Below are positions 60,962 through 64,000 of a stretch of DNA of 64,000 bases, in pieces. Under the pieces are notes generated by a model. That model worked only from the letters and a program-made list of their open reading frames with translations. It was not told the origin of the DNA and did not search any database. The stretch is from Microbacteriaceae bacterium (GTDB lineage: Bacteria; Actinomycetota; Actinomycetes; Actinomycetales; Microbacteriaceae), in contig JAIXWK010000002.1 in assembly GCA_027491295.1 (NCBI GenBank), positions 246,032-310,031 on the forward strand, in the 5' to 3' direction. A program made the position numbers and the translations under genes. Every line of letters starts with the position of its first letter. Positions within the stretch are counted from its first letter, which is position 1.

Positions 60962-61234
60962 TTACTTAACTGCAGCCTTTAGCTTGCTACCTGCAGATAC
61001 CTTTACGGTGTTTGCGGCAGCGATCTGGATGGTTGCGCCAGTCTGAGGGTTGCGGCCAGCGCGTGCTGCACGGCGACCCTTGTCAACGCTTAGGTAACCA
61101 GGAATGGTGACCTTGTCACCCTTCTTGATTGATGCACCAATGGTCTCAAACATTGCGTCGATAACGCGGCCTACGGCTGCCTGAGACTCACCAGTGTGCT
61201 TTGCAACTGCTGCTACGAGCTCGCTCTTGTTCAT
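60962..61234 (-). CDS. HU-family DNA-binding protein
   Basis: This 90-residue histone-like protein begins MNKSELVAAVAKHTGES, contains the IPGYLSVDKGRRAARAGRNPQTG beta-arm region (GRNPQTG is the family signature), and ends in a short Lys/Ala tail without the long basic extension of mycobacterial HupB. It bends and compacts DNA as a dimer. The ATG at 61234 has AGGAGG five bases upstream; a longer in-frame start is unlikely. A promoter and a terminator frame it as a single-gene unit. Confidence 0.96.
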   Translation of the reverse strand: MNKSELVAAVAKHTGESQAAVGRVIDAMFETIGASIKKGDKVTIPGYLSVDKGRRAARAGRNPQTGATIQIAAANTVKVSAGSKLKAAVK

Positions 61235-61274
61235 AATGTCCTCCTGGACGTTGTGGGACAGGATTGTCGGATTC

Positions 61275-61301
61275 AACCTAATGCCCTAAATCCCTTGTCA
61301 A
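61275..61301 (-). promoter_or_regulatory. Promoter of the HU gene
   Basis: On the reverse strand TTGACA (61296-61301) and TAGGTT (61275-61280) are separated by 15 bp, giving a leader of about 34 nt with the AGGAGG site. The -35 is a perfect consensus match; the spacer is short. Confidence 0.5.
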
Positions 61302-61449
61302 TGCTTATGTCTCGGCGTGTTGCATGCCGGCAAATAGCGACTTTTCCCCTAAATCTCGGGGATTTTGAAGTTTTGGAAGAAATTTGGAAAGTGTGATGTT
61401 AGTATTTATGAAAATTATTTCTAGCAATTTTTTTCTAGATAGGAACTAA

Positions 61450-62457
61450 GTGGACGTATCGGTAACCCTCTGGGCAGTAACCATTGGCCTAATCCTTTTG
61501 ATGCTGGCGGTAGATTTGTTCGCTCACCGCCATGCCAGCGTGATCTCGATCAAAGAAGCGGGGCTGTGGTCTGCGCTTTGGGTAACGCTTGGAATTGGAT
61601 TTGGCGTCTACCTCTGGTTTGACTTCGGTCCAGAAATCGGGCAGCAGTATTTCTCAGGCTTTGTGATTGAGAAATCGCTGGCGGTAGACAATGTCTTTAT
61701 CTGGGCCTTGATCTTCGCTGCCTTCAGCGTCCCTCGCGAGTACCAGCATCGCGTGCTGTTCTTAGGCGTGTTGGGAGCTTTGATCTTCCGCGGTTTGTTT
61801 ATCGCAGCGGGTGCTGTGTTGATCAAGAGCTTTGGCTGGATTCTTTATCTGTTCGCGGCGTTTTTGATCTACACCGGTATCAAGATGCTGATCGAACGTG
61901 ACAAGCACTTCAACCCCACTGAGTCCAAGTTCCTAAAGGGATTCCAAAAGCTGATCCCAACCACGGACCGCTACTACGGGCAGCGCCTCTTTATTCGCAA
62001 GGCCGGGGTGCTGATGGCAACCCCGCTTTTGGCTGTGCTGGCACTTGTGGAATTTACCGACATCATCTTTGCGGTTGATTCGATTCCGGCAATCTTCGCC
62101 GTCACCAGCGAGCCGTTTATTGTCTTCGCCGCTAACGCCTTTGCGCTTCTGGGGCTTAGGGCCATGTACTTCTTGCTTTCCGATCTGATTCACCGTTTTG
62201 TCTACCTAAAGGTCGGGTTGTCTTTCATCCTGGTTTGGGTGGGAATCAAGCTCGCATTACACGACGTAGTGAAGGTGCCGACACTTTTGTCTTTGGGCAT
62301 TATTGTTGCGATTATCGCAATTGCCATCATTGCTTCGCTTGTCAAGACCAAGGGCCAGGCACCCCACCCGGCCGAGGTGGAACCCAAGTTCTACTTTGAA
62401 AACGCCAGCGAAGAGGAGATTGCGCAACTAGATTCTGATGCCAGAAGGAAAAAATGA
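61450..62457 (+). CDS. TerC/Alx-family integral membrane protein
   Basis: This 335-residue protein has about nine membrane helices. It shows the TerC signatures EKSLAVDNVFIWALIF and LVEFTDIIFAVDSIPAIFAV, each with an Asp-Asn or Asp-Ser metal-site-like pair, and ends in a charged cytosolic tail. Relatives export manganese or help fold and metallate membrane proteins. The GTG has AGGA five bases upstream. The 215-bp gap from HU is AT-rich near the gene (61360-61449); I see no yybP-ykoY riboswitch there. It overlaps the next gene by ATGA. Confidence 0.9.
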   Translation: MDVSVTLWAVTIGLILLMLAVDLFAHRHASVISIKEAGLWSALWVTLGIGFGVYLWFDFGPEIGQQYFSGFVIEKSLAVDNVFIWALIFAAFSVPREYQHRVLFLGVLGALIFRGLFIAAGAVLIKSFGWILYLFAAFLIYTGIKMLIERDKHFNPTESKFLKGFQKLIPTTDRYYGQRLFIRKAGVLMATPLLAVLALVEFTDIIFAVDSIPAIFAVTSEPFIVFAANAFALLGLRAMYFLLSDLIHRFVYLKVGLSFILVWVGIKLALHDVVKVPTLLSLGIIVAIIAIAIIASLVKTKGQAPHPAEVEPKFYFENASEEEIAQLDSDARRKK

Positions 62458-62741
62458 TGAGTAGTAAGTGGACTTTCCTCTCGCACCACGCTCACGTTTT
62501 AATCGCGCTCTCCAACAACCCTGAGCTCACCATGGATGAGCTGGCCAAGATCGGTGGCATTACCACTCGCTCGGTGGTGAATGTTCTGAATGACCTGGTT
62601 GATGCCGGCTACCTCGCCAAGGAGCGTTCGGGCCGCAAGAACCACTACACAATCAACCTCGACTCCCCGCTTCGGCACCAGACCAGCGCTGATAGAAAAG
62701 TCGGCGACCTGATTGGTGCTCTGGGGCAAGTGCAGCACTGA
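62454..62741 (+). CDS. Small winged-helix transcriptional regulator
   Basis: This 95-residue protein is essentially one winged helix-turn-helix: helix 1 HAHVLIALSNNPELTM, recognition helix TTRSVVNVLNDLVDAGYL, wing KERSGRKNHYTI. It resembles the MarR/ArsR group reduced to its DNA-binding core, with no obvious ligand pocket or Cys metal site. It sits between the TerC-like gene and sbtA with ATGA and TGATG overlaps, so it is probably a local regulator of this operon, but no target site was identified. Confidence 0.85.
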   Translation: MMSSKWTFLSHHAHVLIALSNNPELTMDELAKIGGITTRSVVNVLNDLVDAGYLAKERSGRKNHYTINLDSPLRHQTSADRKVGDLIGALGQVQH

Positions 62742-63709
62742 TGCTGGACTCGGCACTGCAAAACCTCACCAGCGTTCCGGTTTTAGCCTTCGCGCTGGGA
62801 CTACTGGCGACCACCTTGAAGTCTGACCTCAGGCTCCCCGAACCGATCTACCAGGCAATCACCATCTACCTGCTGCTTGGTATTGGCATCAAAGGTGGGG
62901 TTGCGCTTAGCAAAACCAATCTTGATCAGGTACTGAGTCCACTTGTCGGCACCCTGCTACTAAGCGCAGCGGTTCCGATCCTGGCATTTTATGTCTTGCC
63001 GATTTTCGGCAAATATTCCAAAGATGACCGGGGTGCGCTGGCGGCTCACTACGGATCCACCTCGCTGGTCACCTTCACGGCAGCCCTGGTGTTTTTGGAG
63101 GGGCAACGCATTGAATTTGAGGGCTACCTTGTGAGCCTGCTTGCAGTAATGGAGATCCCGGGGATTTTGATTGGTTTGTGGCTCGCTAAAAGAGCGAGCT
63201 CCTCTGTTGTCGCTCTGGGTGAAAGCATGCGCGAGGTGCTGACCGGCAAGTCGCTGCTTCTGTTAGCTGGAGGTTTGGTTATCGGATTTTTCACCGGCGA
63301 AACCGGCTACACCCGTATTGAACCGTTCTTTGGTGGGCTCTTCACCGGAGTTTTGGCGCTATTCCTGTTGGAGCTTGGCATCGTTGCCGGTCGCAGACTA
63401 AGTGATCTCAAGGTCGGGGGCTGGGGGCTGGGGCTATTTGCAGTTTGCTTCCCGCTATTCGCCGGTTCGCTCGGTGTGATTACCGGGCAGCTCAGCGGCC
63501 TCAGCGTCGGAGGAGCAATGGTGCTGGGAGTACTGGCCGCTTCGGCCTCATACATCGCAGCTCCGGCAGCGGTGCGCTTGGCACTGCCAGAGGCAAGCCC
63601 CGGGCGCTACCTGACGGCAAGCCTGGGCTTTACCTTCCCATTCAATCTGGTGGTTGGCATTCCGCTTATGCTTTGGTTGAGCAGTTGGCTTGAAGGAGTT
63701 GGATTCTGA
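62741..63709 (+). CDS. sbtA: Sodium-dependent bicarbonate transporter SbtA family
   Basis: This 322-residue protein has about 10 membrane helices in two inverted repeats, with GIGIKGGVALSKTNL, AHYGSTSLVTFTAAL and SASYIAAPAAVRLALPEA, the substrate-site motifs of SbtA. In cyanobacteria SbtA is a high-affinity Na+/bicarbonate symporter. It starts at an ATG overlapping the regulator stop (TGATG) and overlaps the SbtB-like gene in the same way. The pairing supports the family call; bicarbonate as substrate in this heterotrophic-looking genome is likely but unproved. Confidence 0.9.
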   Translation: MLDSALQNLTSVPVLAFALGLLATTLKSDLRLPEPIYQAITIYLLLGIGIKGGVALSKTNLDQVLSPLVGTLLLSAAVPILAFYVLPIFGKYSKDDRGALAAHYGSTSLVTFTAALVFLEGQRIEFEGYLVSLLAVMEIPGILIGLWLAKRASSSVVALGESMREVLTGKSLLLLAGGLVIGFFTGETGYTRIEPFFGGLFTGVLALFLLELGIVAGRRLSDLKVGGWGLGLFAVCFPLFAGSLGVITGQLSGLSVGGAMVLGVLAASASYIAAPAAVRLALPEASPGRYLTASLGFTFPFNLVVGIPLMLWLSSWLEGVGF

Positions 63710-64000
63710 TGCTGGTAACAAGGAAGTTACTGACAGTTGTGGTTGAAGCATCGCTCGAGCAGCGAATTGGCAAAGACTTGCTGGCCGGCGGAGCCAAGGG
63801 CTTTACCGTCACAGGTGCACACGGTCAGGGCCCAAAGAACCAAAGGGCAGGCGATCTAGAGGGCGGCAACGTCAAGATCGAGAGCGTGGTAAACGAAGCC
63901 AGCCTTGCGGGAATCTTAGAAACTCTAGAAAAGAAGTACTTCCAGCACTACGCCTGCACGGTGTGGGTAACTGATGTTGAGGTATTGCGCGGGGATCGCT
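63709..64000 (+). CDS. sbtB: SbtB-like PII signalling protein (3' end cut by window)
   Basis: Ninety-seven residues are visible before the right edge, close to full SbtB length. The chain has a ferredoxin-like PII fold: MLVTRKLLTVVVEASLEQRIGKDLLAGGAKGFTV, a flexible T-loop-like segment rich in Gly/Lys/Gln/Arg (AHGQGPKNQRAG), then VKIESVVNEASLAGILETLEKKYF and YACTVWVTDVEVL. SbtB binds adenine nucleotides, including cAMP, and gates SbtA. The ATG overlaps the sbtA stop (TGATG). Whether the C-terminal CGPEG-type redox loop exists cannot be seen. Confidence 0.88.
   Translation, partial: MLVTRKLLTVVVEASLEQRIGKDLLAGGAKGFTVTGAHGQGPKNQRAGDLEGGNVKIESVVNEASLAGILETLEKKYFQHYACTVWVTDVEVLRGDR

Follow-up and report, generated by a model that had tools for sequence, protein, structure and literature searches.

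Why should a gene pair of the SbtA-SbtB type, best known from cyanobacterial bicarbonate uptake, share an operon with a TerC-family membrane protein and a minimal regulator in an actinobacterium? The question is raised by the end of a 64,000-nucleotide stretch of DNA (the window) from a Microbacteriaceae bacterium (assembly GCA_027491295.1, contig JAIXWK010000002.1), whose genome comprises 1.45 Mb in 3 contigs. Four consecutive forward-strand genes, terC, wh, sbtA, and sbtB, encode a TerC/Alx-type membrane protein of 335 amino acids (aa) with a GTG start (61450 to 62457), a 95-aa single-domain winged-helix (WH) regulator (62454 to 62741), a 322-aa homologue of the SbtA-family Na+/bicarbonate transporters (62741 to 63709), and an SbtB-like PII protein whose gene runs past the end of the window (63709 to 64000). 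The complete sbtB gene ends at the equivalent of position 64005 and can be read in a longer locus (L020:3241-3537). The junctions overlap as ATGA, TGATG, and TGATG, and this reading, together with family profiles, confirmed the four overlapping genes described in the initial annotation. We conclude, with a probability of about three in four, that the operon is one local version of a broader transcriptional circuit in which the WH protein governs inorganic-carbon supply, TerC included.

We examined 199 genomes of the family, representing 85 genera. Only WH matches above 90 bits with the WH profile were counted as strong, and six weak matches of 27 to 32 bits were left out. SbtA is patchy: it is found in 17 of the 199 genomes and in 10 of the 85 genera. 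In 14 of these 17 genomes a strong WH gene adjoins an SbtA gene, and in 9 of the 14 a TerC gene of the same subfamily as that of the window adjoins as well, in several orders and orientations. Among the loci read, the order TerC-WH-SbtA-SbtB was seen only in the window. The order is WH-TerC-SbtA-SbtB in locus L029 and WH-SbtA-SbtB in L028 and L030. SbtA is divergent from a TerC-WH pair, and without SbtB, in L023, L026, and L031 to L034; it is divergent from WH in L035, L036, and L021. SbtA-SbtB stands without WH in L022 and L025. Conservation of the four-gene order, raised in the initial annotation, therefore failed for the strict order, which varies between loci and was rejected as a conserved unit, and held for the gene set, which recurs rearranged. 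A set that stays together despite changed order and orientation is better evidence of a functional link than an order inherited once.

The WH protein also accompanies a second uptake system. Strong WH matches occur in 27 of the 199 genomes: 14 with SbtA, 10 with DabA, and 3 with neither. WH is present in 24 of the 27 genomes with SbtA or DabA versus 3 of the 172 without them (Fisher P of 1.4e-24, uncorrected for relatedness and overstating the association because the genomes are related). We read the loci of 12 of the 13 WH genomes lacking SbtA (G028 was left out), and in 10 of them WH adjoins genes for DabB, DabA, and PII, with the identities confirmed by Pfam at two loci (DabA E values of 7e-216 and 2.8e-214). 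DabA occurs in 10 of the 199 genomes and 7 of the 85 genera, and WH adjoins DabAB at all 11 DabA loci. The DabAB family is known for inorganic-carbon accumulation, as described in an excerpt of PMC13144422, and homologues in heterotrophs appear in that excerpt and in part of PMC6689103. The DAB/DAC pump of the relatives (DabA, PF10070, with DabB) has the same WH partner as SbtA, a PII-like partner, and the same upstream palindrome. However, the DAB proteins are unrelated to SbtA, and DAB is absent from the window genome. No genome has both systems, but 0.85 would be expected to, so mutual exclusion is not significant and was rejected. Under genus label g74, genome G137 has SbtA-WH-TerC, whereas G074 and G189 have WH-DabAB with TerC elsewhere. 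In G157, of the same genus, SbtA, WH, and the subfamily TerC are all absent. The WH protein is thus the common element: it goes with either of two uptake systems for inorganic carbon that are unrelated to each other, and both pairings occur under a single genus label. It is mainly this sharing that supports the inorganic-carbon role proposed earlier for the operon.

A palindrome search in 136 regions, taken from upstream of WH and of its partner genes, uncovered a shared site. The first discovery ran from random seeds on three sets, and the pooled matrix was started from the resulting consensus. The 20-bp palindromes from the SbtA-type, Dab-type, and pooled sets resembled one another, overall approximately ACATGAA-N6-TTCATGT, with a GAA-N6-TTC core. 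For discovery in four groups, 14 near-duplicate loci were removed, groups were assigned by hand, and one region could sit in two groups; 60 seeds were used for real data and 40 for dinucleotide shuffles (single-base shuffles served in the later site scans). This produced aCntGaAntatanTtCanGt for the SbtA group (29 regions, log-likelihood 155), ACacGaaAtnnaTttCgtGT for the Dab group (19 regions, 130), ananGAAGtataCTTCntnt for TerC without SbtA or Dab (15 regions, 94), and ACAtGaantnnanttCaTGT for isocitrate dehydrogenase (ICDH; 11 regions, 82), versus maxima of 34 to 36 in 12 shuffles per group. The matrices also recognized one another's regions. With the SbtA or Dab matrix, 10 of the 11 ICDH regions were equaled or beaten by no more than 1 of 50 shuffles, as were 16 of the 19 Dab regions with the ICDH matrix. 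The TerC matrix was the weakest, reaching that level in 4 of 19 Dab, 12 of 29 SbtA, and 6 of 11 ICDH regions. The loci are related, so these motif counts are not independent. At 60 WH loci from a class-level sample, all outside the training set, the best site upstream of WH had a P value of ≤0.005 in 31. Presence at many WH genes without carbon neighbors indicates that the site follows the regulator.

The site upstream of SbtA depends on the presence of WH. We scanned 250 bp with the Dab- and ICDH-group matrices, whose training included no SbtA promoters, and took the better of the two P values. A site at P ≤ 0.05 was found at 12 of the 14 loci with WH adjoining versus none of 12 loci from 11 WH-less genomes (lowest P, 0.088); at P ≤ 0.005 the counts were 6 of 14 versus 0 of 12. 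L061, with its WH gene on another contig, also has the SbtA site. TerC genes away from WH gave a similar picture. A clear site lies 143 bp upstream of TerC in L094 (P < 0.002) and L097 (P of 0.002), both from genomes with WH-Dab, and none was found at the unlinked TerC genes of L095, L096, and L098, whose genomes have no WH match. The link between TerC and inorganic carbon, one of two ideas offered at the outset, is supported by adjacency and by a common DNA site that occurs in trans in two genomes.

In the window, the candidate operator TTATGAAAATTATTTCTAGC occupies 61406 to 61425, with its GAA-N6-TTC core at 61410 to 61421, 24 bp before the TerC start codon. The GAA and TTC columns are identical in nine aligned promoters, from the window and eight relatives. 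The shuffle P value was 0.019 with the SbtA-group matrix, whose training set contained the window region. By eye, a possible degenerate second copy follows at 61422 to 61440; in the relatives L030, L103, and L105, another GAA-N6-TTC lies 15 bp further along. A scan of four genomes of the genus for the tandem pattern gave no match in the window genome, where the second copy is degenerate, and three places in G095, one of which (L247) has the coordinates of the SbtA locus L030.

Beyond the family, WH relatives adjoin TerC, SbtA, Dab, or ICDH at some loci and none of these at many others. We scanned named genomes with 27 WH sequences and read the best 80 of 587 loci, a sample that leans toward the query. 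Within 2 kb of WH in these 80 loci we found TerC at 18, SbtA at 15, Dab at 11, and ICDH at 9, plus Dab with TerC at 3, SbtA with TerC at 1, and ICDH with SbtA at 1. Judged by their record titles, the named loci include members of Planctomycetota, Myxococcota, Chloroflexi, Eremiobacterota, and Acidobacteriota. In L182 (Mycolicibacterium), TerC lies between DabAB and WH, and L161 (Bryobacteraceae) reads ICDH-WH-SbtA. ICDH in L033 and L034 was not counted as a promoter-sharing partner because it is of the monomeric type and convergent with SbtA. The class sample, which is more even, had WH at E ≤ 1e-15 in 62 of 296 genomes (71 matches), and 66 of the 71 loci were read, 60 of them new and 6 already in our collection. 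A partner lies within 2 kb at 20 of the 66: TerC at 8, Dab at 5, and ICDH at 1 of the new loci, and SbtA at all of the 6 others. At two new loci without these partners (L198:2726-3379 and L202:2558-3247, one genus label), a beta-carbonic anhydrase, found with the window genome's own enzyme as the query, is divergent from WH.

The window SbtA matches PF05982 with 359 bits (cutoff, 27) and PDB entry 7cye (slr1512) at an E value of 6.7e-29. Four slr1512 side chains, S114, Y140, S324, and S327, have been modeled to bind bicarbonate (PMC8352866). S114 and S324 correspond to S108 and S270 in the window protein and are kept in 33 of 33 aligned proteins; Y140 and S327 correspond to L134 and A273. The window SbtB, a PF00543 protein (63.1 bits) whose gene adjoins sbtA with the TGATG overlap, is complete at 98 aa and ends in EVLRGDRY. 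The CGPxGC redox loop conserved at the C terminus of some SbtB homologues (PMC8352866) is present neither in this completed protein nor in 11 aligned relatives, so the loop that the initial annotation proposed to look for is absent. Its best PDB match is 2cz4, Thermus TTHA0516 (E value of 7.7e-21), versus 6.3e-09 for the best cyanobacterial SbtB. The window pair is therefore like slr1512-slr1513 in that a PF05982 transporter gene adjoins a PII-like gene and the S114 and S324 equivalents are kept, and unlike it at the other two side chains and in an SbtB without CGPxGC that is closer to the Thermus protein. The regulators differ too: the window operon has a winged helix, whereas the cyanobacterial repressor named in an excerpt of PMC10117731 is NdhR. 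Two oddities were seen among SbtA-family genes elsewhere. L073 and L074, from genomes of one genus label with no WH match, carry a tandem pair of such genes, and the gene in L062 (G388:C13) contains an in-frame TAG.

From these data we infer a circuit in which the WH protein would bind palindromes of the ACATGAA-N6-TTCATGT type through their GAA-N6-TTC core. It would control its own gene and whichever inorganic-carbon uptake system the genome has, be it SbtA (alone or alongside SbtB) or DabB-DabA and a PII-like protein. The TerC-family protein would be a further target, and ICDH may be another in other phyla. In the window, terC-wh-sbtA-sbtB would be controlled from the site before terC; because that site is close to the start codon, our guess for the sign of control is repression and its relief. 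SbtA would import bicarbonate with Na+, restrained by SbtB, and so supply carboxylases at times when little CO2 is dissolved. TerC might correct a side effect of the low-CO2 state, in pH or manganese balance. The signal could be a low level of CO2 or bicarbonate, or else pH or a metabolite. The window genome encodes a pyruvate-carboxylase-type domain as well as a rhodopsin and a beta-carbonic anhydrase, which make a consumer of bicarbonate plausible. Anaplerotic carboxylation, the other idea offered at the outset, is thus possible on these three counts; on the other side, the genome gave no match to phosphoenolpyruvate carboxylase.

Several observations weigh against this circuit. SbtA is present without WH in three family genomes (G012, which is fragmented, G030, and G162). 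Two loci have no SbtA site at P ≤ 0.05, namely, L026 and L060, the latter with WH elsewhere in its genome, and no site was found for L067, where WH is about 0.9 kb from SbtA. Of the seven unlinked TerC genes, two gave borderline results: those of L099, from a genome lacking a WH match, and of L100, whose genome has its WH gene at another place. Their P values were 0.03 with the TerC matrix and 0.40 to 0.54 with the pooled matrix. The window operator taken alone is weak, scoring 5.1 bits with the pooled matrix; the Dab, ICDH, and TerC matrices gave it P values between 0.45 and 0.90, and a search of 61250 to 61480 found no sigma-70-type promoter. The Y140 equivalent is L in all 33 aligned actinobacterial SbtA proteins and the S327 equivalent is A in 29 of the 33. 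Two of the four modeled side chains are thus replaced in the window protein, and bicarbonate is a putative substrate. In the best 80 of 587 named loci, 22 have no TerC, SbtA, Dab, or ICDH within 2 kb (one of them, L152, has a monomeric ICDH), and 46 of the 60 new class-sample loci, many from the large-genome genus g112, lack a named partner. At class level the association is loose, with WH in 8 of 19 SbtA genomes versus 54 of 277 others. The many WH loci without a carbon partner indicate that the WH family is wider than the proposed circuit.

An alternative is that the operon answers metal or pH stress, with TerC/Alx and WH responding to alkaline pH or manganese and SbtA acting mainly as a Na+-coupled carrier of a buffering anion. 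Alx has roles in alkaline pH and manganese. The window TerC is of this kind, with 179.9 bits to PF03741 and 393.8 bits to the Alx profile TIGR03718 (cutoff, 246.4), and TerC is the commonest single neighbor of WH in the 80 named loci. Unlike the family at large, this TerC belongs to a WH-linked subfamily distinct from housekeeping TerC. Some TerC match is present in 190 of the 199 family genomes, and a profile of the SbtA-linked form gave 16 matches at 570 to 638 bits, the next being 357. The subfamily occurs in 10 of the 17 SbtA genomes, adjoining SbtA in 9, versus 6 of the 182 others (Fisher P of 5.9e-9); in G141 an ordinary TerC lies near SbtA, and the copy from the subfamily is elsewhere. 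WH stands beside DabAB without TerC at 11 of the 80 named loci. At gathering thresholds, a search of nine loci including the window gave tRNAs but neither the yybP-ykoY riboswitch nor any further RNA family, and a riboswitch upstream of TerC, which the names of the models for this group would lead one to expect, was rejected. Finally, WH has no cysteine and scores 25.7 bits with the ArsR metalloregulator profile NF033788, below the cutoff of 55. We regard a metal or pH stress operon as unlikely.

Alternatively, SbtA might carry another small anion, such as formate or another carboxylate, and the circuit might serve that substrate or pH. The L134 and A273 replacements fit such a carrier, and an excerpt of PMC12093963 implicates the SbtA-like Shewanella protein SO_3758 in formate tolerance. 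Against it, the S114 and S324 equivalents are kept in every aligned protein, and the same regulator accompanies DabAB, an inorganic-carbon family according to the excerpt of PMC13144422, and carbonic anhydrase at two loci; we consider a different substrate improbable.

It is also improbable that WH is a general small regulator drifting beside many operons, its palindrome purely autoregulatory and its neighbors merely sharing the intergenic region: the partnerless class-sample loci, many still carrying the site, and the single promoter region common to divergent gene pairs would suit this, but the partners are nonrandom and functionally related (SbtA, DabAB, ICDH, and in two loci beta-carbonic anhydrase), and sites lie in front of TerC genes remote from WH (L094 and L097), between WH and TerC in L029, and upstream of SbtA in L061.

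The window WH passes the cutoffs of PF12802 (MarR_2; 43.1 bits versus 27) and PF01047 (27.8 versus 24.6), and its assignment also rests on its predicted fold and its conserved SbtA or DabAB partner. The predicted structure is a plain winged helix with no separate ligand domain (mean predicted local distance difference test score, 78.5); the C-terminal helix, residues 83 to 94, is predicted at low confidence. A typical MarR protein has about 140 aa, with helices for dimerization and ligand binding, and the PDB MarR chains among our structure matches have 131 to 153 aa in most rows. WH resembles MarR-type regulators in its PF12802 match and differs in its length of 95 aa and in the lack of a separate ligand domain in the prediction; small winged-helix DNA-binding proteins are closest by fold, with MarR lower in the list. 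Residues invariant in 64 aligned relatives include W6, T7, F8, L9, H12, H14, G60, Y65, R74, and H75. We speculate that the ones near either end of the domain may bind a ligand or take part in dimer contacts.

A bolder proposal, which we hold to be doubtful, is that WH is the first of a cross-phylum group of single-domain regulators whose sensing of inorganic carbon is direct or almost direct, through an anion or bicarbonate site made of the invariant H12, H14, R74, and H75, and that it defines a regulon with SbtA, DAB, carbonic anhydrase, ICDH, and TerC as interchangeable parts. If so, TerC would have a part in inorganic-carbon homeostasis that has so far escaped notice. Heterotrophs are already known to have SbtA-like proteins, as excerpts of PMC10117731 and PMC10030771 state. 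In open-licence PubMed Central listings we found no paper tying this regulator type or its site to SbtA, DAB, TerC, or ICDH, none linking TerC or ICDH to inorganic-carbon uptake, and no description of how heterotroph SbtA or DAB is controlled. We describe the circuit as a probable winged-helix regulon, unusual both in what it contains and in how far it extends. With one small regulator and one recognizable site, it would offer a way to learn under which conditions heterotrophs import CO2 or bicarbonate, and would give TerC, whose function is debated, a place in inorganic-carbon control. WH and its palindrome could also serve as a sequence marker for further inorganic-carbon genes. One candidate is the uncharacterized DUF6671, whose members accompany WH beside DabAB and beside ICDH (L024:14297-15163, L125:3640-4419, L089:9388-9996, and others).

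Some further features of the loci were recorded. L130, titled Comamonas sp., and L149 (Myxococcus) share the same WH neighborhood, and the Comamonas label may be wrong. The orphan loci of the TerC subfamily (L094 to L100) have no common neighbor that we could recognize among the predicted genes. By eye, a SulP-like transporter adjoins the subfamily TerC in G078 (L099:3119-4891), and another adjoins WH in the Dab locus of G055 (L085:5091-6752). The window gene at 60962 to 61276 resembles, by eye, one for an HU-type DNA-binding protein; it runs divergently from TerC, and the candidate operator lies in the intergenic region between the two. Just past the window end, at L020:4484-7471, genes that by eye resemble zur and znu zinc-uptake genes are convergent with SbtB. 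Genes of the same appearance are convergent with WH at L201:526-3471.

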